Assembly (NCBI GenBank): GCA_013821605.1
Contig: JACDGP010000022.1
Location: forward strand, 1-53,752
Length of the DNA: 53,752 nucleotides
Direction of reading: 5' to 3'
DNA from: Herpetosiphonaceae bacterium
Lineage (GTDB): Bacteria; Chloroflexota; Chloroflexia; Chloroflexales; Kallotenuaceae
How positions within the stretch are numbered: position 1 is the stretch's first letter; each line of letters begins with the position of its first letter. The translations under genes were made by a program, and so were the position numbers. The notes below the pieces were generated by a model. It did no database searches, was not told the DNA's origin, and saw only the letters and a list, made by a program, of their open reading frames with translations. Positions 21,904-33,899 of the stretch are shown one piece after another.

Positions 21904-22512
21904 ATGATAAGCGCTTCCGATGTTCTCGACGTTCTCCCGGTCGTACATCCTGCCGACCATATTCTAGGGCCTGAGCAAGGTCAGTGGACCTACACTGACT
22001 ATGCTGCGGTGCCCAATGACGGGCACCGTTATGAGGTCATTGAAGGAGTGTTGTATATGGCACCGGCCCCCGGCTCAGCCCACCAATCTGCAAACAACCT
22101 GCTTCAGACCTACCTTACGATACATGTGCAATTCACGGGTTTAGGTCGGGTGTTTGGGCCTCCGTTCGACGTTGAACTTGCGCCAGGGACCGTTGTACAG
22201 CCGGACGTGACAGTTGTGCTTGCTCCAAACCTGGGCGTCGTTACGCCACGCGGCATTGTGGGAGCACCTGATTTGGTCGTTGAGATCGCCTCCCCTGGGA
22301 CGGCGACGCACGATCGGAGTACGAAATTACACGCGTATAGCGGAGCCGGCATTCGGGAATATTGGATCGCTGATCCTCATGCTTACACCGTAGAATTGCT
22401 GGTGCTTGAGCATGGGAGCTACCGGGCTGCAGGCGTGTTTCAGGGTAAGGCACTCCTACCATCAACGGTGGTGCCGGGGTTACCGGTACGGGTTGAACAA
22501 TTTTTTGCGTAA
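21904..22512 (+). CDS. Uma2 family endonuclease (DUF820), copy 1
   Basis: The 202-residue protein belongs to the Uma2/DUF820 family, which has a restriction-endonuclease-like PD-(D/E)XK fold and is strongly expanded in Cyanobacteria and Chloroflexota. The fold is visible in order: GHRYEVIEGVLYMAPAPGS, then QPDVTVVLAPN (metal-binding Asp), PDLVVEIASPGT (Glu) and DRSTKLHAYSGAGIREYWI (Lys). All catalytic positions are intact. The biological target of the family is unknown. The next gene is a close copy in the same orientation, sharing even the ~20 nt upstream (GGAGCAGAGTT before ATG). Confidence 0.9.
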   Translation: MISASDVLDVLPVVHPADHILGPEQGQWTYTDYAAVPNDGHRYEVIEGVLYMAPAPGSAHQSANNLLQTYLTIHVQFTGLGRVFGPPFDVELAPGTVVQPDVTVVLAPNLGVVTPRGIVGAPDLVVEIASPGTATHDRSTKLHAYSGAGIREYWIADPHAYTVELLVLEHGSYRAAGVFQGKALLPSTVVPGLPVRVEQFFA

Positions 22513-22572: not shown

Positions 22573-23172
22573 ATGACAAGTGCCTTTGATGTACTCCCAG
22601 CAGTAAGTTCCGCCGACCATATTCCGGGGCCGGAGCAAGGTGAGTGGACCTACGCCGACTATGCTGCTGTTCCCGATGACGGGCACCGTTATGAAATCAT
22701 TGAAGGAGTGCTGTATATGGCTCCGGCTCCTGGGTCAGCCCATCAATCCGCAGTGACATGGTTTATCTTCTACCTCACGACCTATGTCCAGGTACCGGGG
22801 CTAGGACGAGTATTCACCGCTCCCTTTGACGTGGAACTTGCGCCAGGGACCGTGGTCCAGCCGGACGTGACAGTTGTCCTTGCTCTAAACCTAGGAGTCG
22901 TTACACCACGCGGGATTGTGGGAGCACCTGATCTAGTCGTTGAGATTGCCTCGCCAAGCACAGCGACGCATGATCGAAGTACAAAATTACAGGTGTATAG
23001 TCAGGCTGGCATTCGTGAATATTGGATCGTTGATCCCCATGCTCACACGGTAGAATTGCTTGTGCTTGAGCATGGGAGCTACCGGACCGTGAGTGTATTT
23101 CAAGGCAAGGCGCTGCTACCATCAGCGGTGGTGCCAGGGCTACCGGTGCGGGTTGAGCAATTTTTTGCGTAA
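22573..23172 (+). CDS. Uma2 family endonuclease (DUF820), copy 2
   Basis: The 199-residue tandem paralog of the preceding gene is very similar over its whole length, including the upstream leader (GGAGCAGAGTT). Catalytic segments QPDVTVVLALN, PDLVVEIASPST and DRSTKLQVYSQAGIREYWI are intact. Differences cluster in the segment after HQSA (about residues 55-75), where copy 1 reads NNLLQTYLTIHVQFTG and copy 2 VTWFIFYLTTYVQVPG; this segment may bear specificity. The pair arose by local duplication of gene plus leader. No partner gene or antitoxin is apparent. Confidence 0.9.
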   Translation: MTSAFDVLPAVSSADHIPGPEQGEWTYADYAAVPDDGHRYEIIEGVLYMAPAPGSAHQSAVTWFIFYLTTYVQVPGLGRVFTAPFDVELAPGTVVQPDVTVVLALNLGVVTPRGIVGAPDLVVEIASPSTATHDRSTKLQVYSQAGIREYWIVDPHAHTVELLVLEHGSYRTVSVFQGKALLPSAVVPGLPVRVEQFFA

Positions 23173-23179
23173 CGCTTGC

Positions 23180-23638
23180 TCAAGGTGTTGTATCGGGTGC
23201 ACCTGCGAATAATTCGGCAATAGGTAATGAGAGCGTTGGCAAGCAGTCGAAGGTGATTGTGTCGCCGATCATTACGGTACGCGGGTAGGCGTAGCGTCCG
23301 CGCGAGTCGAGGCGATAGTGGTTGAGAGAGCGAGTGGCGGGGTTAATAATGGCATACTCGGGCACACCAGCTACGGCATAGGCAAGGAACTTAATGCGCT
23401 CGTCGAAGGTTTTGTTGCCCGGCGATAGCACCTCAACGATCAAACCGGGGACGCCCCAGATGCGCCGGTCATGAATGATGCCGACGTTTTGCTGTAGTAC
23501 TATGATATAGTCGGGCTGTACAGGATCACAGTTCGGCATAAGAACGCCGATTGGGGCCATAAAGGCAAAAGCCAAGCCTTGGTCTTCGGCAGGAATACCC
23601 AGATAACGATATAAGCGCCGCACAAGCCATCTTTTCAT
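23180..23638 (-). CDS. Uma2-like endonuclease, N-terminally short form
   Basis: The 152-residue divergent Uma2-family protein has CDPVQPDYIIVLQQN, VPGLIVEVLSPGNKTFDERIK and a C-terminal LPTLSLPIAELF. Core Asp, Glu and Lys positions are kept. It lacks the ~50-residue N-terminal block (GHRYE...EGVLYMAP) that precedes the core in copies 1 and 2. Translation starts at ATG 23638, 7 nt after the amidohydrolase stop, with GAGGT between them. It is convergent to copy 2, with only 7 nt between their stop codons. It could be a shortened active nuclease or a 5'-truncated copy. Confidence 0.75.
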   Translation of the reverse strand: MKRWLVRRLYRYLGIPAEDQGLAFAFMAPIGVLMPNCDPVQPDYIIVLQQNVGIIHDRRIWGVPGLIVEVLSPGNKTFDERIKFLAYAVAGVPEYAIINPATRSLNHYRLDSRGRYAYPRTVMIGDTITFDCLPTLSLPIAELFAGAPDTTP

Positions 23639-23644
23639 GATACC

Positions 23645-25234
23645 TCACGCCGGTGCTTCCCACACGCTTTGGCCGCCAACCACGGTTTGGAGTACACGAA
23701 CACGTTGAAGTTCCGCGGACGGGATGGCAAACGGATCAGCGTCGAGGACGACGAGGTCGGCGAGCTTGCCGGCGATGAGTGCGCCTTTAAGGGCAGTCTC
23801 GGCAGAGGCATGGGTTGGGCCGAGGGTATAGGCGTCGAGAGCGGCTTGTAGGCTGATGGCAAGCTCGGGGTGCCAACCACCGGGGGGGGTGTTGTCCGGA
23901 CGCTGGCGGGTGACGGCAGCGTGGATGCCACGCCAGGGATCAAAGGTTTCGACCGGAGCATCAGAGCCAAAGGCCAGGATAGCACCACTCCGTAGCAAGG
24001 GCTGCCAGGCATAGGAGGAGGCACAGCGTTCGCGGCCAAGCAGGCGCTCAGCGATCTCCATGTCGGCGGTGGCGTGGATCGGTTGCATTGAGGCTACGAC
24101 ACCAAGCTGGGCGAAGCGATCAATGTCGGCGGGATCAAGATGCTGGGCATGTTCGATGCGATGCGGCATCGCGCAATGCGCGGCACGCACGGCGGGATGC
24201 GAGAGCGCGTCTAGGACATTGCGATTAGCACGGTCACCGATGGCATGGATGGCGAGGGCAATGCCGTTCGTCGCGGCCTTAATGACAGCAGCGTGTAGCT
24301 CTTCCTCAGGCACCGTAGGCAGGCCATAGTTTGACTCGGTACCGACAAAGGGCGCGAGCATATGGCAGGTACACGATCCGAGCGAACCATCGCTAAAGAT
24401 TTTGACACCGCCGACGCGGACCCACTCGTCGCCCAGACCCGAGCGTAGGCCGAGCTCGATGGCCTGGTCCAGCTGGTTATAGCGCAGGTGACAGAGGCCA
24501 CGGATCCGCAACTCATTCGCGTCGCGGAGATCGCGAAAGATCGCCAGAGCGGCGGGACCTTCGGGCATATGCAGGCTGGTCAGGCCCAGACGATGGCAGT
24601 GGGCAATCGCCTGCTGCATAGCAGTGCGCTTTTCGGCGTAGGTGTAGTCGGGTACGGCATCGTAGCCCAGATCGTTGGCCGTTTCCAGGAGAATACCGTT
24701 CGGCTCGCCTTGAGCATCACGTTGGATAGCGCCGCCGGATGGATCACCGGTGGCAGCATCAACGCCGGCCAGTTGCAAGCCTGCGCTGTTAAGCCAGACG
24801 GAATGGCCGTCTTTGCGTGATAGCAAGGCGGGGTGGCCAGCGGTGACGCGGTCGAGGTCGGCAGCGGTCGGCCAGCGATTGCCCCACAAGGCATGGTTCC
24901 AGCCGTGGCCACGTACCCAGGCACCATCCGGAAGCTGAGCAGCGTGTGCAGCAATACGGTCGAGCGCCACATTGAGCGAGGCCACTTCATCGAGATCGAT
25001 GCTGAGCGCGTTGAGACCGGTCCACATTAAGTGAATATGTGCGTCGGTCAGGCCGGGCATGAGGGCATGGCCGTTAAGATTGACCTCTTCATAGTGTCCC
25101 TCGATCACACTGCGAACGACCGGGGCGGGTCCGACCGAAATGATCCGGTCGTCGCGCACGAGCAAGGCATCGACGAGCGGCTGCTGCGGATCGAGCGTAT
25201 AAATCGGGCCATTGTGAAATAGGAGGTCAGGCAT
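23645..25234 (-). CDS. Amidohydrolase family protein (YtcJ-like, Amidohydro_3)
   Basis: This 529-residue metal-dependent hydrolase has the HxH metal motif GLTDAHIHLMWTG near residue 60, the segments HAIGDRANR and HRIEHAQH (metal-binding histidines), and the conserved C-terminal FGSDAPVETFDPW. The YtcJ group cleaves amide, carbamate or formamide bonds of unknown natural substrates. The start ATG at 25234 overlaps the psuG stop by 8 nt (ATGCCTGA), which implies translational coupling; an upstream start at 25303 would overlap psuG deeply and is rejected. With psuG and the Uma2-like gene it forms a minus-strand operon. The substrate is unknown. Confidence 0.9.
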   Translation of the reverse strand: MPDLLFHNGPIYTLDPQQPLVDALLVRDDRIISVGPAPVVRSVIEGHYEEVNLNGHALMPGLTDAHIHLMWTGLNALSIDLDEVASLNVALDRIAAHAAQLPDGAWVRGHGWNHALWGNRWPTAADLDRVTAGHPALLSRKDGHSVWLNSAGLQLAGVDAATGDPSGGAIQRDAQGEPNGILLETANDLGYDAVPDYTYAEKRTAMQQAIAHCHRLGLTSLHMPEGPAALAIFRDLRDANELRIRGLCHLRYNQLDQAIELGLRSGLGDEWVRVGGVKIFSDGSLGSCTCHMLAPFVGTESNYGLPTVPEEELHAAVIKAATNGIALAIHAIGDRANRNVLDALSHPAVRAAHCAMPHRIEHAQHLDPADIDRFAQLGVVASMQPIHATADMEIAERLLGRERCASSYAWQPLLRSGAILAFGSDAPVETFDPWRGIHAAVTRQRPDNTPPGGWHPELAISLQAALDAYTLGPTHASAETALKGALIAGKLADLVVLDADPFAIPSAELQRVRVLQTVVGGQSVWEAPA

Positions 25235-26141
25235 CGGTGGCTTCCTCCACAAGCGCAACCGCAATTTGGGCGGCGATGCTTGCATTATTACGAAGTAAGG
25301 CAATGTTGGTCCGTAGGCTTTCGCCGGTAGTTTCGCACTCCATGGCCGCGAGTAGAAAGGGTGTTACTGCAGCGCCCCGGATATGGTTGGTCTTCGCCGT
25401 GCTCAATGCGCGCTCAATCGCGGCTTCGGCGGTAGCACGTGGAAGGGCAACCTCGGGGGGTGGCGGAACACATACAAGCAGCCCGCTGCCACCACCGTAT
25501 TGGAGGTGAGCGTGCCAGATACGTGCAACCTCGGCGGGAGTGTTGGCGCGGATCGTAAGCGGGAGACCACTAGTTGTGCTATAAAAGGCCGGTAACTCGT
25601 CGCAACCGTAGCCGACAACAGGCACACCCAGGGTTTCTAGCAGTTCGAGCGTCGCGGGCAAGTCGAGGATCGCTTTGGCCCCGGCACAGACGACCAGCAC
25701 TGGGGTACGACTAAGCTCACCAAGATCGGCCGATACATCCCAACTTTCGCGCGCGCCGCGATGGACACCGCCGATGCCGCCAGTGGCAAAGACCGCGATG
25801 CCGGCCAGGTGTGCCAGGGCCATCGTAGCCGCCACGGTCGTGGCACCATCCGCAGCCTGGGCTACGGCCGCTCCCAGATCGCGGCGTGAGAGTTTTCGGA
25901 TGCCTTCACGACCGACGAAGCGCATGAGCGCCGGCTCGTCTAAGCCGATCATGGGCACGCCGTGGCCGACACCAATCGTTGCCGGCTGTGCGCCACCGTC
26001 GCGCACAGCTTGCTCCAAAGCCTGTGCTGTTTCGAGGTTGAGGGGATAGGGGAGGCCGTGCGATATTAGGGTGGATTCGAGGGCGACGACCGGCTTGTGC
26101 TCTTGTAAGGCGGCATGAATATCGGGGCGAATGGTCAGCAT
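25227..26141 (-). CDS. psuG: Pseudouridine-5'-phosphate glycosidase
   Basis: The 304-residue protein reversibly splits pseudouridine 5'-phosphate into uracil and ribose 5-phosphate in pseudouridine breakdown. It matches PsuG throughout: ALESTLISHGLPYP near the N-terminus, VGHGVPMIGL, KLSRRDLGAAVA, FATGGIGGVHRGA and VVCAGAKAILDLPATLE. The kinase partner PsuK is not in the window. The gene heads a three-gene minus-strand operon with the amidohydrolase and the short Uma2-like protein, so the amidohydrolase may act on a nucleobase or related amide (inference). Confidence 0.95.
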   Translation of the reverse strand: MLTIRPDIHAALQEHKPVVALESTLISHGLPYPLNLETAQALEQAVRDGGAQPATIGVGHGVPMIGLDEPALMRFVGREGIRKLSRRDLGAAVAQAADGATTVAATMALAHLAGIAVFATGGIGGVHRGARESWDVSADLGELSRTPVLVVCAGAKAILDLPATLELLETLGVPVVGYGCDELPAFYSTTSGLPLTIRANTPAEVARIWHAHLQYGGGSGLLVCVPPPPEVALPRATAEAAIERALSTAKTNHIRGAAVTPFLLAAMECETTGESLRTNIALLRNNASIAAQIAVALVEEATDA

Positions 26142-26377
26142 ATGATTTGGACTCCAGTTGAGAGGGGATTAATGGTTGCGTGGCTTCGCGTGGTCATAGC
26201 ACACCTCATCATGGCAATCGTAACATACTCCAAGGCTTGTAAAAAGCAAGGATCAAGATGGAAAAGCAGCAACAGTATCAAGCATACGGTGCGTAACGAT
26301 CTGCTTCATGATTCGTTAAACTTATGAAACAAGATGAACCAGTTGTTCATATAGAGAAGGTTGGTACAGAGGTATCT

Positions 26378-27937
26378 ATGAAACAAGCATACTCGTCCCA
26401 TGATGGTCTGATGCATTCGCACCGGTTGCGCTCCTTTGGTGTTTGTCGGCGGCAAGCCGTGGTCGTGCTCATGTGTCTGCTGCTCACGGTGTTGCTACCG
26501 GTCACGATCACTGCTCGATCTTCAAGCATACTTGTTCCCGCGCGAGCAGGGTGCGCGACGGCACATTGTGACCCAGTGATGCCGCATGATGTGTCTCATT
26601 TCACCGTTTTGCTACCGGTCGTGATCGCTGGGCAATCTGTAAGTGCACTTTTTCCGGCACAAACAGGATGTGCAATGGCACATTGTGACCCAATGATGTC
26701 GGATAACGCGAATACTGCTGCACCCTTGACGCAAGTCCACGCCTATTGGCATGACACTACGGTTACCGGTTCCAACATAGGTCTTGGTTGTTCCTCGAAT
26801 AGTTCCATTGCCGTTTGTACGTTGCTACCGAATAGCACTGCGACAACGACATTGAAAGCGTATACCGCTTCAGGTTCAAGTCCTTGGTCGTCAACCTTAC
26901 TCAACAACACTGCTCCCTATTCGGCCCCGATGGTTAATGCCGATGGCAGCGTGATTGCGGCCGATAGTGAGAAGGTTTTCCGCTTAAATCCTGATGGTTC
27001 TCCTGCTTGGATCACGAACACTCCAGGCGGTATACCGATCAGCCCAACGACGACCGGTGATAACTCTATTATTTTGGCAACCTTAGGTGGACCGGTCTCA
27101 GCATATGATGCAAATACCGGCGTCATGCTTGCCAGTCTAGCCATTAACGCCAGTATTAACGACAATGGTGTGGTGAAAACTGGTATTTTTGATACGGCAA
27201 ATACGCCCACGATTCAGGGAAATCGTATTTATATCTCTACACAATTTCACGAAACCGCTACAGGGGCGATCCTACCATATGGTAGACTCTACGCCTTAGA
27301 CTTGATGCGAACTGGCGAAACAGCACAGCTTTCGATTGCGTGGTTTTATGAGTTCCAAGCACCAAGTGGTGCATCACCACTGCTGATTCAAACGGATAAT
27401 GGCACAACTATTTATTTTGACGGCAACGGTGTCATACCGGGTGGTTCAGTCGATCCTCATACGTTCGCTGTGGTTGATAAAGGCGATCATGGAGAACTGG
27501 TGTGGTCATACCAAATGCCGACCCGAGCCCTTGCAGGAGCAGCACGCGATCCGCGCGGTGGGCTGTGGATATTTGTGCCCCAAGAGCCATACTTAATCCG
27601 ATTGGATCAAACGACTGGAACTGAATTACAGCAACTCGATGTGGGTGCTCTTATTAATGAGTCGGTTGTTTATTGGCCTAGTTCAGCAATGAGTATTAGC
27701 GGTACAGCAACACAGCCAGTCATGATCGTCTCAACGAGAACGGCGACAGCGACCTCCAGCTATCTTATCGCTATTGACTTGTCCGCTGGAACACTACTGT
27801 GGAAATTCCGTTATGATGAAGGGAAAGGGTTCGATGGTCATAGCTATGGACAATTTCCAATTGTCACCTCAGCTACTGGGCAACCGGTTGTAGTGTTTAC
27901 CACAAGCGACAACGGCACCTGGGCTTTCGGGCAATAA
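26378..27937 (+). CDS. Secreted or membrane-anchored PQQ-like beta-propeller protein with duplicated Cys segment
   Basis: The 519-residue protein has a hydrophobic segment at ~27-45 (signal or anchor). A 39-residue unit starting TVLLPV is repeated in tandem (37-75 and 76-114) and each copy ends GCAxAHCDPxM. The rest (~150-519) has beta-rich PQQ-like repeats, for example AYDANTGVMLASL and AIDLSAGTLLWKF, suggesting a propeller with no visible catalytic site. ATG at 26378 has AGAGGT upstream and is preferred over ATG at 26324, which has no ribosome site. Base composition looks more AT-rich than the neighbours, which suggests transfer. It is 11 nt upstream of the 227-residue gene, so the two are probably an operon. 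Function is unknown. Confidence 0.7.
   Translation: MKQAYSSHDGLMHSHRLRSFGVCRRQAVVVLMCLLLTVLLPVTITARSSSILVPARAGCATAHCDPVMPHDVSHFTVLLPVVIAGQSVSALFPAQTGCAMAHCDPMMSDNANTAAPLTQVHAYWHDTTVTGSNIGLGCSSNSSIAVCTLLPNSTATTTLKAYTASGSSPWSSTLLNNTAPYSAPMVNADGSVIAADSEKVFRLNPDGSPAWITNTPGGIPISPTTTGDNSIILATLGGPVSAYDANTGVMLASLAINASINDNGVVKTGIFDTANTPTIQGNRIYISTQFHETATGAILPYGRLYALDLMRTGETAQLSIAWFYEFQAPSGASPLLIQTDNGTTIYFDGNGVIPGGSVDPHTFAVVDKGDHGELVWSYQMPTRALAGAARDPRGGLWIFVPQEPYLIRLDQTTGTELQQLDVGALINESVVYWPSSAMSISGTATQPVMIVSTRTATATSSYLIAIDLSAGTLLWKFRYDEGKGFDGHSYGQFPIVTSATGQPVVVFTTSDNGTWAFGQ
26486..26719 (+). repeat. Two tandem 117-bp repeats inside the propeller gene
   Basis: Two in-frame 117-bp units (26486-26602 and 26603-26719) encode 39 residues each, starting TVLLPV and ending in a conserved GCAxAHCDPxM block. 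They differ by about a third at the protein level, so the duplication is not recent. Confidence 0.75.
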
Positions 27938-27948
27938 AGGACGTAGAG

Positions 27949-28632
27949 ATGCCACAGGCAAATAGCGCACCGGAACTAACACTGCGCGATAGGATTGAGG
28001 CGTGGAAAGCAAAGCAGGATCAGGATGAGTTCCTAGCTATCATCAATGACGTTTGCAACGATGTCGTCAGCACCATCCGTGATGGAAGCGGAGCGGAGCG
28101 CGGGCAACTGGCTACCGATCTGGCAGTGCTCCGGAAGATCCAACCATTGCCGTTCCCTGGCACCGATGACTTTCTCCATGTGCTGCAATTGATGCTACGC
28201 AACCAGCCGGGCATGGCTCGGCAGGCTGCACAGTTGCGAGCCGAGTTACCGGAAGCCTTTGCAGTCACACTGACAACGATGGAGCGCTTGATCGCGGGCG
28301 AGACGGTGCCGGAAGAGCCCGAGGGGACACCAGCAGCGGCAATGTTGCCCGTGGAGCAGCCCGATCCGGTGGAGGTGCTGGAACAGGTGGCGCCAGCCTT
28401 TGAGCAAGTGACATTGATGCTACATGACCCACAGTTTGGTAGCCGGGCGATGGTGGCCCAGTATGTCGAGAAGATGGCAACACAGGCAACAGAGGGCGAA
28501 ACAGCAGGTTCACCTTGGCTTGACGCAGCAGCAGGACTGCGCGCATTGGCCGCACTGTTGCGCGACGAAACTCCAAATGTGGAGATGTTGACGCCGACGT
28601 ATCGTAAGCTGGTGGAGGAGGCACGGGGATAG
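27949..28632 (+). CDS. Stand-alone homolog of the CHAT-STAND protein C-terminal domain
   Basis: The 227-residue acidic, helix-rich protein has no family I recognise. It aligns over nearly its full length with residues ~1153-1376 of the large CHAT protein at 29117-33247. Shared blocks include TLRDxIExWKxxQDxDE, LPFPGTDDFLHVLQLMLR versus LPLPGANDFLHALQLMLR, TMERLIAGE, and the C-terminal GSPWLDAAAGLRALAALLR. An acidic, Pro-rich linker of variable length (~125-145) separates an N and a C half. It follows the propeller gene by 11 nt. It could be a partner, competitor or regulator of the large protein, or a domain released by duplication. There are no catalytic motifs. Confidence 0.75.
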   Translation: MPQANSAPELTLRDRIEAWKAKQDQDEFLAIINDVCNDVVSTIRDGSGAERGQLATDLAVLRKIQPLPFPGTDDFLHVLQLMLRNQPGMARQAAQLRAELPEAFAVTLTTMERLIAGETVPEEPEGTPAAAMLPVEQPDPVEVLEQVAPAFEQVTLMLHDPQFGSRAMVAQYVEKMATQATEGETAGSPWLDAAAGLRALAALLRDETPNVEMLTPTYRKLVEEARG

Positions 28633-28671
28633 GGGGCGACAGGATGCGGATTCAAGGGAAGGACCGGATTG

Positions 28672-28830
28672 ATGACAACAATTGAGATTGAAGTTGATAG
28701 AAACACAGCTACGGCCTATGCTTCCGCCTCACTAGAAGTTCGGCAGAAGATCCAGCTCCTCCTAGACATATGGGTGCCAGACGTAGTTACGATGCCAAAG
28801 CGGACCTTACCGCGTCAAGCTCTTGATTAG
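28672..28830 (+). CDS. Short antitoxin-like peptide, possibly truncated
   Basis: The 52-residue frame starting ATG at 28672 reads MTTIEIEVDRNTATAYASAS and continues LEVRQKIQLLLDIWV. This resembles the N-terminus of small antitoxin-like proteins that precede toxin genes. The normal C-terminal helix is replaced by an unrelated tail (VVTMPKRTLPRQALD), so it is probably truncated. It stands directly upstream of the decayed VapBC-type pair. The family call comes from pattern memory only. Confidence 0.45.
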   Translation: MTTIEIEVDRNTATAYASASLEVRQKIQLLLDIWVPDVVTMPKRTLPRQALD

Positions 28831-28841
28831 AGGAGCATGAT

Positions 28842-28993
28842 ATGGCAACAGCAGATTACAGTGATGTGTTGGAGTGCGAGAGGTAGTAGCTCGCCTAGGT
28901 GACCTGGCCGTGCCAGATGATAGCTTTGCTGCAGACCTCGAAGCAGTGCAGTCCTCTCAGCCCAAAGTTGGCAGTCCAGAATGGCACAACTGA
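28842..28993 (+). pseudogene. Decayed type II antitoxin gene (frameshift/deletion)
   Basis: ATG at 28842 with AGGAG upstream begins MATADYSDVLECER and hits a stop at once. In another frame (28883-28993) the sequence continues as VVARLGDLAVPDDSFAADLE and ends SPEWHN, the typical C-terminus of VapB-like antitoxins found before PIN toxins. The middle is missing and the frame is broken. The end overlaps the start of the PIN remnant in the usual antitoxin-toxin manner. Confidence 0.6.
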
Positions 28994-29034
28994 TCGACTC
29001 AAGTGTCTTCATTGCCCTAGAGCGTTGCTGGTAA
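28981..29034 (+). pseudogene. PIN-domain (VapC-type) toxin remnant
   Basis: ATG at 28981 overlaps the antitoxin remnant's stop and reads MAQLIDSSVFIALERCW before a stop codon. This is the first beta strand of a PIN ribonuclease with its first active-site Asp (LIDSSVFIALER). All later acidic residues are gone. The toxin gene is reduced to 17 codons. Confidence 0.6.
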
Positions 29035-29116
29035 GCTGGTAAGACGCCATCCCTCAAATCCTTTAATTTGTGCTATGCTTCCTCGCAATCCTTTCGTAAC
29101 CTAAACAGGAGTGCGT

Positions 29117-32100
29117 ATGCCGCTGATCCTGACCTTGCGCCGTGATGCCCCCGATCGCGCGACCGCTCTGGTCGGCGATTCGGTATTGCACAGCTTCGAT
29201 CCGCTAGCGTTACGTTCCTTTGAGCCTGCATCCAAGGAGCAGCCAGTCCCAAAAGAGCCCGTGGCCTATGGCAAGCGCTTGTTTGCCGCACTCGGGGGCG
29301 AGGAACTCAAACGGCTGCTACCCAAGAAACTTGCGCCCAATCTTGACAGCCTGATTGCCCTCGAAAGTTCTGACTTGGAGCTCATGGCGATTCCGTGGGA
29401 ATATGTGTATGGACCCGCTGGCTTCCTGATCCTGGACTATCTATTTATACGCTCCGTCCCAGACGCTCCCTTGCCAGATGATCCGCGCCCTGACCAGCCT
29501 TGGCGTTTGGTTGCGTTAGGCAGCGATCCGGTGTTGGCAGAGGTCCGGGATCCGAACGACAAGCTGTTGGGCTTTGCTCCAATGCTTCCGCTGCGGGTGG
29601 TCGCGGAGTTGGATGACTTGAGCAAGAGCTTAACAGCATACCAGCCGCCACTTCCCCTACGCTGGCAACGTCTGGCCCCGACGCAGAACGCCCTGATCAA
29701 CCTGAATACCGGCGATGAGCCAATCATCCTGCACTATACGGGTCATGGTGATGTCATAGCAGGTGAGCCGTATTTGTGTTTCGATGACGGCACGGGCATG
29801 ATGGAGCCGGAACCGGTGCGCGACCTAGCGGCAGAACTCCGTGAGCGGACCTACCTAGCATTCTTTAACGCCTGCCGTACTGCGGACGTGACTGAGCCGG
29901 GTGCGAACCTTGCGTTGGCGCTGGTACAGGGCGGGATTCCAGTGGTGGTTGGGACACAATTCACGGCACAGGACAATGCTGCCGCACCCTTTGCATGGAC
30001 CTTCTACCAACACCTCGTGAGCAACGGACCACTCATCGCGCTGTGGCGCGCTCGTCGCCAACTCAAAACGCTTTATCCCCATGATCCCGGCCAGTGGGGC
30101 ATTCACACACTATATCTTGCCGCAGGCTATCAATGGCCACAACGACAGATGCGCGTTGAGCAGCCGCTCCAGCCGCTCGATGGACCGCCGTTCAATATCC
30201 TCGCCTTGCAAGCACCGGCAGTCGTGTTAGGTCGCCACCACGAGCTGCACGATCTAGCCACCTTGTTTGTGCACGATCATAAACAGATTGTGACGATTCT
30301 GGGTCCGGGAGGCATGGGTAAAACAGCGTTGGCGAGTGCTGTTGCACAGCGGCTCCGCTTTCACTTTCCAGGAGGGGTCTTTGCAGTATCGCTGGTCTTA
30401 CCCGAAGCCAATGCCTCCCTCAGTGCAGCCGCCATTCGTCGTCAGATTGCCGAGCTACTGGGGGCGTTGGATGCAAGCTTTGAGGATCCTACGGCTGCGC
30501 ACGCACAAGAAGAGGCGATCCTCCGAGTCCTGCAAGGCCGTCAGCGTAGCTTGCTGATCTTCGACAATTATGAAACCGTTTTGTGGCTGCTAGGGAAAGA
30601 GCCCATCGAGGGGGAAGGCGCTCCCAAGCCGGCACAGTGGAGCGAGGCAGACGCAGTTCAGCGCCTGGTGACACGTTTAGCAAAAGCCCAGACGCATCTG
30701 TTGTTTACATCCAGGCAGGCACCCGTTGGCTTGGCTAACGAAGTTACCTATCCGCCTCGAAAACAGCAACTAGGTGGCCTGGAGCGTGAAAGCAGCAACG
30801 AGTTATTCAAGCAAAATGTCGGTGAACGATCAGCAAATGAGACCTTTCGTGACGCGGTTGCGGAGAAGGTCGGTGATAGCCCGCTGGCAATCATTCTTGC
30901 TGCGAAGCGCTGGAGCACGGGTCACCTAGCGGAAGCGGACTTTCTTCAACATATTGTCGATGAGTTGATCCTGGCTGAACAGCAGGGGGTACCGGAGAAT
31001 CAGCGCTCAGCACTCGCTAACGTCCGATTGTCGATCAACGACCTCACTGCTGACAGGCGACAAGACTTCCTAGCACTTTCGATCGTCGGCAACCCAATGA
31101 TCCAGCCAATGCACGGCGCAGTGGTTTGGGGCCTTGAGGACGAGCAGCAATGGTTTACGGAGCAGGCGCACGAGCGACTCCAGGAGTTCTGTGATCGCTC
31201 GCTGCTACAGCCGATCTTACGTGACGTGCAGTTGATGGTCGATGAGCAGCAGAACCGAGCACTCGCCTATAGCCTCCAGCCAGTCATTGCGCAGGTTGCG
31301 GGGCATCTTGCCAAAGCGGACGGGCCGCTGCTCGAAGAACCACAGGCTCGCTATGCTCGTTGGGCAGAAATGAAGGTGAATCGCGCATTCGGAAAAGGAG
31401 GAATGAGTTTCAAGCCGGAGATTGCGCGTGAAATGCAGGTGATGCTACCTGATTTACAAGCCGCATTACCGCATTTGCCCCTTGAGCAACGAGGATGGGC
31501 AGCTTGGAGAGCGGCTGATGCTGCTTATAACCTCGGTCGCCCAGATGTGGCAGATAGAATGCTGCAACTTGGCGAAGACACAGCACGGGAAGCCGAAGAT
31601 CGCATATTGGAAGGGCGTCTGAAGGTTGTACAGGGAAAACAGGCTGTGCTCAGAGGAAACTTAGATGACGCCATTCAGCACTACCAAACGGCCTTGACGA
31701 TTATTGATGGATTAGACGATCAGCTGGGTGAGCGGGCCGTTATCATGAGCCAAATGGCCGGGGTGCTGGTGACGCGCGGCGACCTCACTGGGGCTATGGA
31801 ACTCTACCAGCAGTCCTTAGCAAGCCACGAAAGCATCGGCAATGTCCAAGGCAAAGCCGCGACCCTTGCGAATATGGCGATCCTTCAATGGCGACAAGGC
31901 GCGCATGAGGTTGCACTCAGCAATATCCGCGCAAGTCTGCGACTCCTTGAACGAGTGGGAGCGGTACGCGAGGTTGAACAGGTACGTCGCATCCTTGCGA
32001 AGATGGAAGGCGCGGTCCAAGTAGACACACCAGACGGCTTGTCGCCGGGCCAGCTTGCTGGGGCATTGGTAGCTGCAACGACACGTGCATTACGGGGACA

Positions 32101-33247
32101 ACTATCACGTGATAAGGTGCGTGAGGATCTCGTGGGATTGCAGGTTGACGAGGTGCTAACAGCGTACATCAATGGGCTGGTGGACGTGCTCGATGGGAAG
32201 GGTACGGTAGGGGCGTTGCTGAGCGCGGTGGAGCAAATACTGCAATCTGCAATGCCAGCCGAGCGAGCCAGTGTATATCGAGGAATCAGTAACGTTGCCG
32301 ACGAAATTGGCGACGTTGAAGGGGAAATTAAGGCACGCCAGCAAGCTATAGCAGTACAGCGCCAGGTGGGCGAGGACCGTGAGAATTTAGTTGAATTGAG
32401 CGTGATGCTGTTTAACCTTGCAACTACGTACGCCGGGCAGGGACAGCACGCGATGGCAGTTCCTCTGCTTGAAGAGGTGGTGGCACTGGATGAGCGCAAT
32501 CAGCATCCTGATCTTGAATCAGATCGGCAGGCGCTAGAAACAGCACGGCAGCGGGCGGGTGGAGCACCGAAGCAGACCTTGCGCGATGTCATTGAGAAGT
32601 GGAAGCACGACCAGGATAAGGACGAGTTAGCGAAGCTGATCAACGCAATTTGCAATGTTGTCATCGATGTCGTGCGCGATGGTGACACAGTCTTACGTAG
32701 TCAGGTTGCCGAAGATTTATCAGCCCTACGGATGGTGCGTCCACTGCCGCTTCCGGGAGCCAATGATTTCCTCCATGCCTTACAATTGATGTTGCGCGAC
32801 CAGCCGGGGATGGCAGAACGAGCAGCACAGGTGCGGGCGGTCTTGCCAGAGGGGTTTGCCCGAGTGCTGGTGACGATGGAGCGGATGATTGCAGGCGAGA
32901 GCACGGAAGATGAGGCTGAGGAAGAGCCGGAGGAGGAAGAAGCCCTCGCCAACCTTTCACCCGAGCAGCGACGCGAGATGCAGGTCTTGGCCCAAGTGTT
33001 TCCGGCTTTCGAGCAAGCTGCTCAGAGCCTGCACGATCCGAAGATTACGTTTGTGCAACGCATGGAAGCAGCAAAGCAAGTCGATGGTATGGCAACCAAA
33101 GCCGCCGAAGGTGAAGAACTGGGATCGCCGTGGCTTGATGCAGCGGCAGGATTACGGGGGTTAGCTACGCTATTACGAGGTGGCACACCTGACATTGCGG
33201 CATTGGGGCCGGTGTATCGCAAGCTGTTGGAAGATGTGAAGGGATGA
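29117..33247 (+). CDS. CHAT protease - NB-ARC-like STAND NTPase - TPR protein with novel C-terminal domain
   Basis: The 1376-residue protein has four parts. (1) A CHAT caspase-like domain (~1-330) with the catalytic dyad His210 (HYTGHGD) and Cys253 (FFNACRTA). (2) An NB-ARC/STAND ATPase (~370-700) with Walker A GPGGMGKT (396-403), Walker B LLIFDN (Asp483) and sensor LLFTSRQAP. (3) Tetratricopeptide repeats (~790-960 and ~1050-1150). (4) A C-terminal domain (~1153-1376) homologous to the separate 227-residue protein just upstream. The architecture is that of NLR-like proteins in which repeats sense a ligand, the NTPase oligomerises and the CHAT protease is unleashed; several CHAT-STAND proteins are antiphage. 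Function here is inferred. ATG at 29117 has AGGAG 5 nt upstream. It is followed closely by a zinc-ribbon gene and a membrane-protein gene. Confidence 0.88.
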   Translation: MPLILTLRRDAPDRATALVGDSVLHSFDPLALRSFEPASKEQPVPKEPVAYGKRLFAALGGEELKRLLPKKLAPNLDSLIALESSDLELMAIPWEYVYGPAGFLILDYLFIRSVPDAPLPDDPRPDQPWRLVALGSDPVLAEVRDPNDKLLGFAPMLPLRVVAELDDLSKSLTAYQPPLPLRWQRLAPTQNALINLNTGDEPIILHYTGHGDVIAGEPYLCFDDGTGMMEPEPVRDLAAELRERTYLAFFNACRTADVTEPGANLALALVQGGIPVVVGTQFTAQDNAAAPFAWTFYQHLVSNGPLIALWRARRQLKTLYPHDPGQWGIHTLYLAAGYQWPQRQMRVEQPLQPLDGPPFNILALQAPAVVLGRHHELHDLATLFVHDHKQIVTILGPGGMGKTALASAVAQRLRFHFPGGVFAVSLVLPEANASLSAAAIRRQIAELLGALDASFEDPTAAHAQEEAILRVLQGRQRSLLIFDNYETVLWLLGKEPIEGEGAPKPAQWSEADAVQRLVTRLAKAQTHLLFTSRQAPVGLANEVTYPPRKQQLGGLERESSNELFKQNVGERSANETFRDAVAEKVGDSPLAIILAAKRWSTGHLAEADFLQHIVDELILAEQQGVPENQRSALANVRLSINDLTADRRQDFLALSIVGNPMIQPMHGAVVWGLEDEQQWFTEQAHERLQEFCDRSLLQPILRDVQLMVDEQQNRALAYSLQPVIAQVAGHLAKADGPLLEEPQARYARWAEMKVNRAFGKGGMSFKPEIAREMQVMLPDLQAALPHLPLEQRGWAAWRAADAAYNLGRPDVADRMLQLGEDTAREAEDRILEGRLKVVQGKQAVLRGNLDDAIQHYQTALTIIDGLDDQLGERAVIMSQMAGVLVTRGDLTGAMELYQQSLASHESIGNVQGKAATLANMAILQWRQGAHEVALSNIRASLRLLERVGAVREVEQVRRILAKMEGAVQVDTPDGLSPGQLAGALVAATTRALRGQLSRDKVREDLVGLQVDEVLTAYINGLVDVLDGKGTVGALLSAVEQILQSAMPAERASVYRGISNVADEIGDVEGEIKARQQAIAVQRQVGEDRENLVELSVMLFNLATTYAGQGQHAMAVPLLEEVVALDERNQHPDLESDRQALETARQRAGGAPKQTLRDVIEKWKHDQDKDELAKLINAICNVVIDVVRDGDTVLRSQVAEDLSALRMVRPLPLPGANDFLHALQLMLRDQPGMAERAAQVRAVLPEGFARVLVTMERMIAGESTEDEAEEEPEEEEALANLSPEQRREMQVLAQVFPAFEQAAQSLHDPKITFVQRMEAAKQVDGMATKAAEGEELGSPWLDAAAGLRGLATLLRGGTPDIAALGPVYRKLLEDVKG

Positions 33248-33470: not shown

Positions 33471-33899
33471 ATGCATGTCGTGGGACCGGAGACGGCAAGC
33501 GACCGCGCTCGCCGCGAGTGGTTCGAGGAGCAGGAAAAGAAGAATACCGACCGGCTCGAGGATGGAGCGAAGACGATCACGACCCTCGTTACGGGGCTGT
33601 ATGGAGTGCTGTTTGGCGTTTTGGCATTAAGCACACATCCCGAGTTTTTAAAACGTCCGAGTGTGCAGTGGCTTGGCACGGCAGGGGTTGTAGTCTTTTT
33701 TCTTGCGCTGCTAGCAGCTCTCACGACAACATATCCTTGGCCTAACCTGGCACAGCGCGACAATGTGACCGAGATGGAAGCGGCTTACACTGCCCTTGTT
33801 AAACGTAAAGTTTGGAGTCTGAGCGTCGCATTGGTTGCCTTCGTTGTTGGCACACTCCTGTTGGGCTGCTTGATTAGTGCAGTGCTGTGGGGATGGTGA
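33471..33899 (+). CDS. Three-helix membrane protein of unknown function
   Basis: The 142-residue protein begins with a charged N-terminal helix (~1-34, rich in Glu, Arg and Lys), followed by membrane helices at ~35-54, 66-86 and 114-140 and a charged segment between the second and third. ATG at 33471 lies 4 nt after the zinc-ribbon stop; a GTG/ATG further upstream would overlap that gene. As the last member of the CHAT operon it could be a membrane effector or a target cleaved by the CHAT protease, as in other CHAT and CBASS-like systems. That is inference; no known effector family is evident. Confidence 0.7.
   Translation: MHVVGPETASDRARREWFEEQEKKNTDRLEDGAKTITTLVTGLYGVLFGVLALSTHPEFLKRPSVQWLGTAGVVVFFLALLAALTTTYPWPNLAQRDNVTEMEAAYTALVKRKVWSLSVALVAFVVGTLLLGCLISAVLWGW

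Follow-up and report, generated by a model that had tools for sequence, protein, structure and literature searches.

We found that the C-terminal domain of a CHAT-NACHT/NB-ARC-TPR protein is also encoded by a separate, intact gene lying just upstream of the full-length one in the window, that is, the whole 53,752-nucleotide stretch of DNA that was analysed. The two copies are homologous over the entire domain, arose within their own lineage and have evolved under equal constraint. A trans-acting component (an adaptor, a decoy or a competitor that sets the threshold) is the simplest interpretation, because a free copy of the sensor end has been kept and is as constrained as the fused one. On sequence and analogy, we tentatively favour, at a little less than even confidence, a solo protein that acts in trans as an adaptor or regulator derived from the NLR-like protein's sensor end. 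It is possible, but more doubtful, that the locus forms a larger module, in which an undescribed two-repeat sensor domain has split off and tunes its NLR-like CHAT parent in trans, with a three-TM membrane protein as partner.

The solo gene, the CHAT protein and their surroundings

The solo ORF starts with an ATG that is preceded by a Shine-Dalgarno-like stretch, AAAGGA. Its residues 3-227 align with residues 1148-1378 of the 1378-aa CHAT protein (29111-33247) at 55% identity (BLASTP, 229 bits, E 5e-73), and a separate whole-genome search returned the same pair at 57% identity (E 1.1e-72). The ORF is the end-to-end counterpart of the final 231 residues of the CHAT protein, and the gene boundary of the solo copy is the domain boundary. 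The original prediction, in which a 227-residue protein was aligned with the end of the CHAT protein through several shared blocks, is confirmed by these searches; the blocks are present in both copies, and the alignment supports a detached copy of the sensor-side domain beside the full-length gene. Low-complexity helix similarity was rejected as the source of the match, the E-value of 5e-73 being far beyond it.

At the DNA level, the likeness between the solo and CHAT genes is 65-70% and limited to the domain. The rest of the CHAT gene was absent at any meaningful E-value from the 6.1 kb upstream (23001-29110; tblastn and blastn). The suggestion of a newly mobile domain is not supported, since no flanking duplicated DNA was found around the solo copy, no copies were found in plasmids, phages or viral contigs, and the 5.88-Mb genome yielded two full two-repeat copies, the solo and the fused one, and no other. 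The profile search adds a weak half-repeat on contig 95 (G000:C95), at the end of an NB-ARC-TPR protein; this 594-aa ORF (L068:7030-8814, minus strand) has a PIN-like start and is possibly a fusion or read-through of two genes. The codon-position composition of the solo gene resembles that of the CHAT gene, unlike that of the propeller gene upstream. Scans for promoters and terminators gave signals no better than in shuffled sequence.

The true start of the CHAT protein is probably the ATG at 29117 rather than the GTG at 29111, since relatives begin with MPITI... or MSVAL.... Reading the sequence by eye, we found the His and Cys motifs of the CHAT domain (HYTGHGD and FNACRT) and the Walker A motif (GPGGMGKT) intact. 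The NTPase reached 39.7 bits as NACHT (cut-off 26.7) and 42.3 bits as NB-ARC (cut-off 23.5), and TPRs were detected towards the C-terminus (TPR_12, E 9e-13; TPR_2, E 5e-8). This order of CHAT, NACHT/NB-ARC and TPR gives the effector-switch-sensor layout of NLR-like proteins, a type of protease switch that bacteria employ in immunity, and the CHAT His/Cys motifs, the STAND NTPase with Walker A and the C-terminal repeat sensor together place the protein in the CHAT-STAND-TPR class. For the same protein, PADLOC hits were limited to a TPR model and a weak match to TRIP13.

The solo and CHAT genes are 478 bp apart, with apparent dead gene fragments between them; we take the debris in 28633-29110 to resemble a broken VapBC-type toxin-antitoxin pair. 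Upstream, a PQQ-like propeller gene stops 11 bp before the solo ORF. Its N-terminus is self-repeating (TVLLPV...CATAHCDP / TVLLPV...CAMAHCDP), and it was perhaps acquired recently, as its GC3 is 0.45 against about 0.6 in neighbouring genes and only weak matches to it were found in the phylum sample. It was rejected as an operon partner: it was found near no relative, and the matches to it in 200 genomes of the phylum were weak.

Table 1. Features at and around the solo gene (positions in the window).
Feature	Position	Strand	Description
Uma2-family putative endonuclease genes	21904-22509, 22573-23169	+	two genes in tandem
PQQ-like propeller gene	26324-27937	+	secretion-type N-terminus
Solo copy of the CHAT protein's C-terminal domain	27949..28632	+	227 aa, two helical repeats, sole domain content
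Repeat 1 (N-half) of solo copy	27979..28296	+	helices 12-22, 25-45, 48-63, 72-84, 89-98, 102-115
Variable linker between solo repeats	28297..28362	+	pLDDT <50 at residues 122-136; 30% identity to fused copy
Repeat 2 (C-half) of solo copy	28363..28629	+	contains GSPWLDAAAGLR block; helices 140-159, 166-181, 189-204, 216-226
Debris ORF	28669-28830		53 aa, MTTIEIEVDRNTATAYAS...; between solo and CHAT genes
Debris tail	28874-28993		...DDSFAADLEAVQSSQPKVGSPEWHN; between solo and CHAT genes
Truncated debris	28981-29034		MAQLIDSSVFIALERCW*; between solo and CHAT genes
CHAT-NACHT/NB-ARC-TPR protein	29117..33247	+	ORF opens at GTG 29111 (1378 aa); ATG 29117 probable
CHAT protease domain	29267..30097	+	PF12770, E 8.2e-15, above cut-off
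NACHT / NB-ARC STAND NTPase	30287..30817	+	PF05729, E 6e-10; PF00931, E 7e-11
Fused two-repeat domain	32552..33244	+	C-terminal to TPRs of CHAT protein
142-aa 3-TM protein	33471..33899	+	three predicted TM segments; adjoins CHAT gene

A two-repeat helical domain, its hosts and its neighbours

Using an alignment of twelve homologous sequences, we compared the profiles of the domain's two halves with hhalign; the halves match each other with a local E of 1.2e-6 and a probability of 91%. An AlphaFold2 model of the solo protein, run along with four relatives (mean pLDDT 81), is all helical and has the same four-helix order in both halves, with a disordered linker at residues 122-136 between them; its pTM of 0.49 is low, so how the halves are placed relative to each other is uncertain. 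Structure prediction of the two copies, which had been proposed as a check, gave agreement: modelling of the CHAT protein's TPR-plus-domain region produced the same helices. By profile and model, the domain is an internal duplication of homologous four-helix repeats. The variable acidic linker described in the original prediction does exist and does vary, but it is better seen as the joint between two mutually homologous repeats, since the halves are homologous and share their helix pattern.

No family in Pfam or NCBIfam reaches its cut-off for the two-repeat domain, which is uncatalogued in both. The prior concern that it might prove a common known repeat, or that the two copies might share mere helix composition, is not borne out. 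Foldseek with the solo model gave no match better than E 0.9, and the PDB sequences matched in a profile search were all designed helical repeats, with E-values of 0.003 or worse. VIA-align returned middling 14-3-3-like helical matches, mostly within residues 6-133 at most, with few exceptions; the best comparison with the 14-3-3 fold (Z 7.2 over ~100 residues) is at or below the background for helical models. A weak PADLOC match of the solo protein to ZorG / DUF3348 was rejected (E 0.0016, 16.4 bits), as it covers only residues 21-114 of 227 onto 71-158 of 260.

Relatives of the domain are largely confined to one order. A search with the solo protein matched 19 of the 158 genomes of the class, every one of them in the order of the source; with the profile, matches were found in 24 of 82 genomes of the order and in 19 of 400 sampled across the phylum. 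In scans of contigs, the two window copies found nothing and a ten-row alignment was too divergent, while a five-row alignment recovered three loci. The profile search that had been recommended for listing domain partners placed the domain mainly at the C-termini of CHAT-type, and in some cases caspase-type, STAND-TPR proteins of the same order. The hosts are CHAT-STAND-TPR proteins of ~1350-1900 aa and, in L036, a caspase-type TPR protein. The number of units per protein varies from half to two, with only the C-half in L033, L034, L037 and L038, the N-half in G023 and tandem sets in L035 and L036. Half-repeats also terminate other NB-ARC-TPR proteins, and a 283-aa standalone protein of such repeats is found in a genome of a different class (G236), where its neighbour is an ABC transporter rather than a CHAT gene. 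The named matches come from a Chloroflexus MAG, a Chloroflexi MAG and a Chromatiaceae MAG, the last of which may reflect transfer or misbinning.

Several of these loci have features of their own. In L035 and L036 (G049 and G050), the domain ends CHAT and caspase TPR proteins and clusters with a MoxR-like AAA ATPase, joined in L036 by a Trypco1 gene, a combination that resembles ternary conflict systems in the literature. A CHAT-STAND gene in G046 (L032:5636-11352) is split by ~2.5 kb containing other ORFs, which leaves a 159-aa C-half ORF. Two adjacent ORFs in G023 each carry a TPR end and repeat 1.

The solo two-repeat gene itself was found beside a CHAT gene in none of five genomes of the same family and, among the 158 of the class, in the source genome (G000) only. 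By comparison, the 3-TM protein adjoins a CHAT gene in 13 loci, the window and 12 others (L025/L075, L026, L027/L074, L028, L031, L032, L033, L034, L038, L041, L070 and L076), and is a more general partner of these CHAT genes than the solo copy. Its gene usually lies ~190-330 bp downstream on the same strand, though just upstream in L041; extra copies in the class sit beside other CHAT genes in L108, L110 and L111, but not in L109 and L112. Pfam matches to the 3-TM protein were all below threshold, among them, in relatives, the Pycsar effector PycTM (E 0.008-0.12). The protein is a candidate effector or substrate of the CHAT protease, and a protease paired with a membrane protein recalls gasdermin-type systems.

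Constraint on the solo copy and competing explanations

Maximum-likelihood analysis groups the two window copies as sisters (94/94 support), separate from the clade that holds the closest other CHAT homologues; the duplication is therefore lineage-specific. It is not recent, since synonymous sites are near saturation (dS 2.4). With dN at 0.36, dN/dS is about 0.15, a pairwise value that averages both branches and cannot assign constraint to one of them, which the rate tests can do in part. Divergence at codon positions 1, 2 and 3 is 33, 28 and 56%. Despite this near-saturated divergence, the solo ORF has no stop or frameshift; in simulations of neutral decay, the chance of no stop was below 1% at 0.3 substitutions per site, and none of 2000 runs was stop-free at 0.5. 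Of 75 residues invariant in five relatives, the solo copy retains 53 and the fused copy 54. Eight outgroups were used for relative-rate tests, which revealed no difference between the two (chi2 at most 1.5), although the solo branch in the tree is somewhat longer (0.51 vs 0.34). Taken together, the intact frame, the simulations, the invariant residues and the equal rates make loss of function unlikely. They suggest that residues required in the fused copy are also required in the solo copy, which by these measures is not a decaying fragment but is as constrained as its fused counterpart.

These results bear directly on whether the solo gene could be what is left, at the 3' end, of another CHAT-STAND gene in tandem that lost its front, a remnant that stayed readable with no selected function. 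Such breakage does occur in relatives, as in the interrupted gene of G046 and the adjacent ORFs of G023, and there is other gene debris in the spacer; but the uninterrupted frame at near-saturated synonymous sites, a substitution rate equal to that of the fused copy, the lack of any TPR or NACHT trace upstream, and an in-frame ATG with a Shine-Dalgarno-like stretch exactly at the domain start leave this improbable. The same rates and invariant residues suggest unchanged binding surfaces instead of a new job, and so tell against a functional helical-repeat protein no longer tied to CHAT-STAND, whose adjacency would reflect its tandem-duplication origin. We consider this explanation unlikely but worth keeping in view, given the standalone repeat protein of G236, the half-repeats that end other NB-ARC-TPR proteins and the plausibility of separate transcription. 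That the solo copy serves as a reserve of sequence for gene conversion of the fused domain is disfavoured and very improbable: the copies are in tandem and in the same orientation, but they differ to a similar degree throughout the domain (repeat identities of 61% and 57%), no stretch stands out as recently homogenised, and the best DNA match is about 70%.

A decoy, which would bind an invader or host inhibitor aimed at the CHAT-STAND sensor end, or display the targeted surface as a trigger, fits the retention of the same residues in both copies, and STAND sensor ends are known as sites of diversification (PMC10907252). We give it little credence, as no phage-encoded binder or mimic is known and phages and viral contigs yielded no relative, although sequence cannot tell a decoy from an adaptor. 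The adaptor reading has points against it as well, namely a pair present in one genome, a 478-bp spacer with debris and an unrelated secreted propeller 11 bp upstream; because the pair was found in one genome only, there is no basis for judging whether the arrangement is conserved. The original suggestion of a regulator, decoy or subunit thus stands as a possibility and, given the shared constraint, as the preferred class, with no second genome that contains the pair.

On the adaptor or regulator reading, the NLR-like CHAT protein has an N-terminal caspase-like protease, a STAND NTPase switch and a TPR solenoid ending in the two-repeat domain. The terminal domain alone was duplicated in this lineage and would have been kept as a separate protein under purifying selection. 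Presumably expressed and working in trans with the CHAT-STAND machinery, the solo protein could bind the ligand of the fused domain, or pair homotypically with the fused domain itself or with its docking site. It might thereby set the threshold of CHAT-STAND activation or recruit partners to it, with either sign of effect conceivable, and the adjacent membrane protein would be a candidate effector or substrate. Such control would offer a small, separable point of access to how a bacterial NLR-like protease is kept inactive and switched on, and a two-repeat domain already delimited for direct binding assays. The linked 3-TM and CHAT genes offer a testable pair of protease and membrane protein.

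Comparison with published conflict systems

The window protein shares with bacterial NLR-like STAND proteins that have a CHAT effector and a TPR sensor the N-terminal CHAT domain, the central NACHT/NB-ARC and the C-terminal TPRs. It differs from them in the extra two-repeat helical domain after the TPRs and in a second copy of that domain as a separate gene. The sensor of characterised STAND proteins consists of their C-terminal repeats, and in clade 5A MoxR-linked and DGR-linked ternary loci a short CLec-only gene lies beside a long CLec target (PMC10907252). The layout is alike, with a short sensor-only gene next to a long gene ending in the same domain, while the fold is C-type lectin there and helical here.

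Additional EAD (adaptor-domain) genes occur near core conflict genes (PMC8195603). Like EADs, the window domain is small, all-helical and non-catalytic, occurs as part of an effector/NTPase protein as well as in a gene nearby, and has relatives near MoxR-like and Trypco1 genes; as with EADs, it is common to the core NTPase protein and a neighbouring gene. Unlike EADs, it is C-terminal after the sensor repeats, not beside the effector, and is internally duplicated, and no EAD family matched it at cut-off in the Pfam and NCBIfam libraries, which possibly lack some EADs. By analogy, the solo and CHAT genes may represent a parallel, with other folds, to the published sensor-only and extra-EAD genes.
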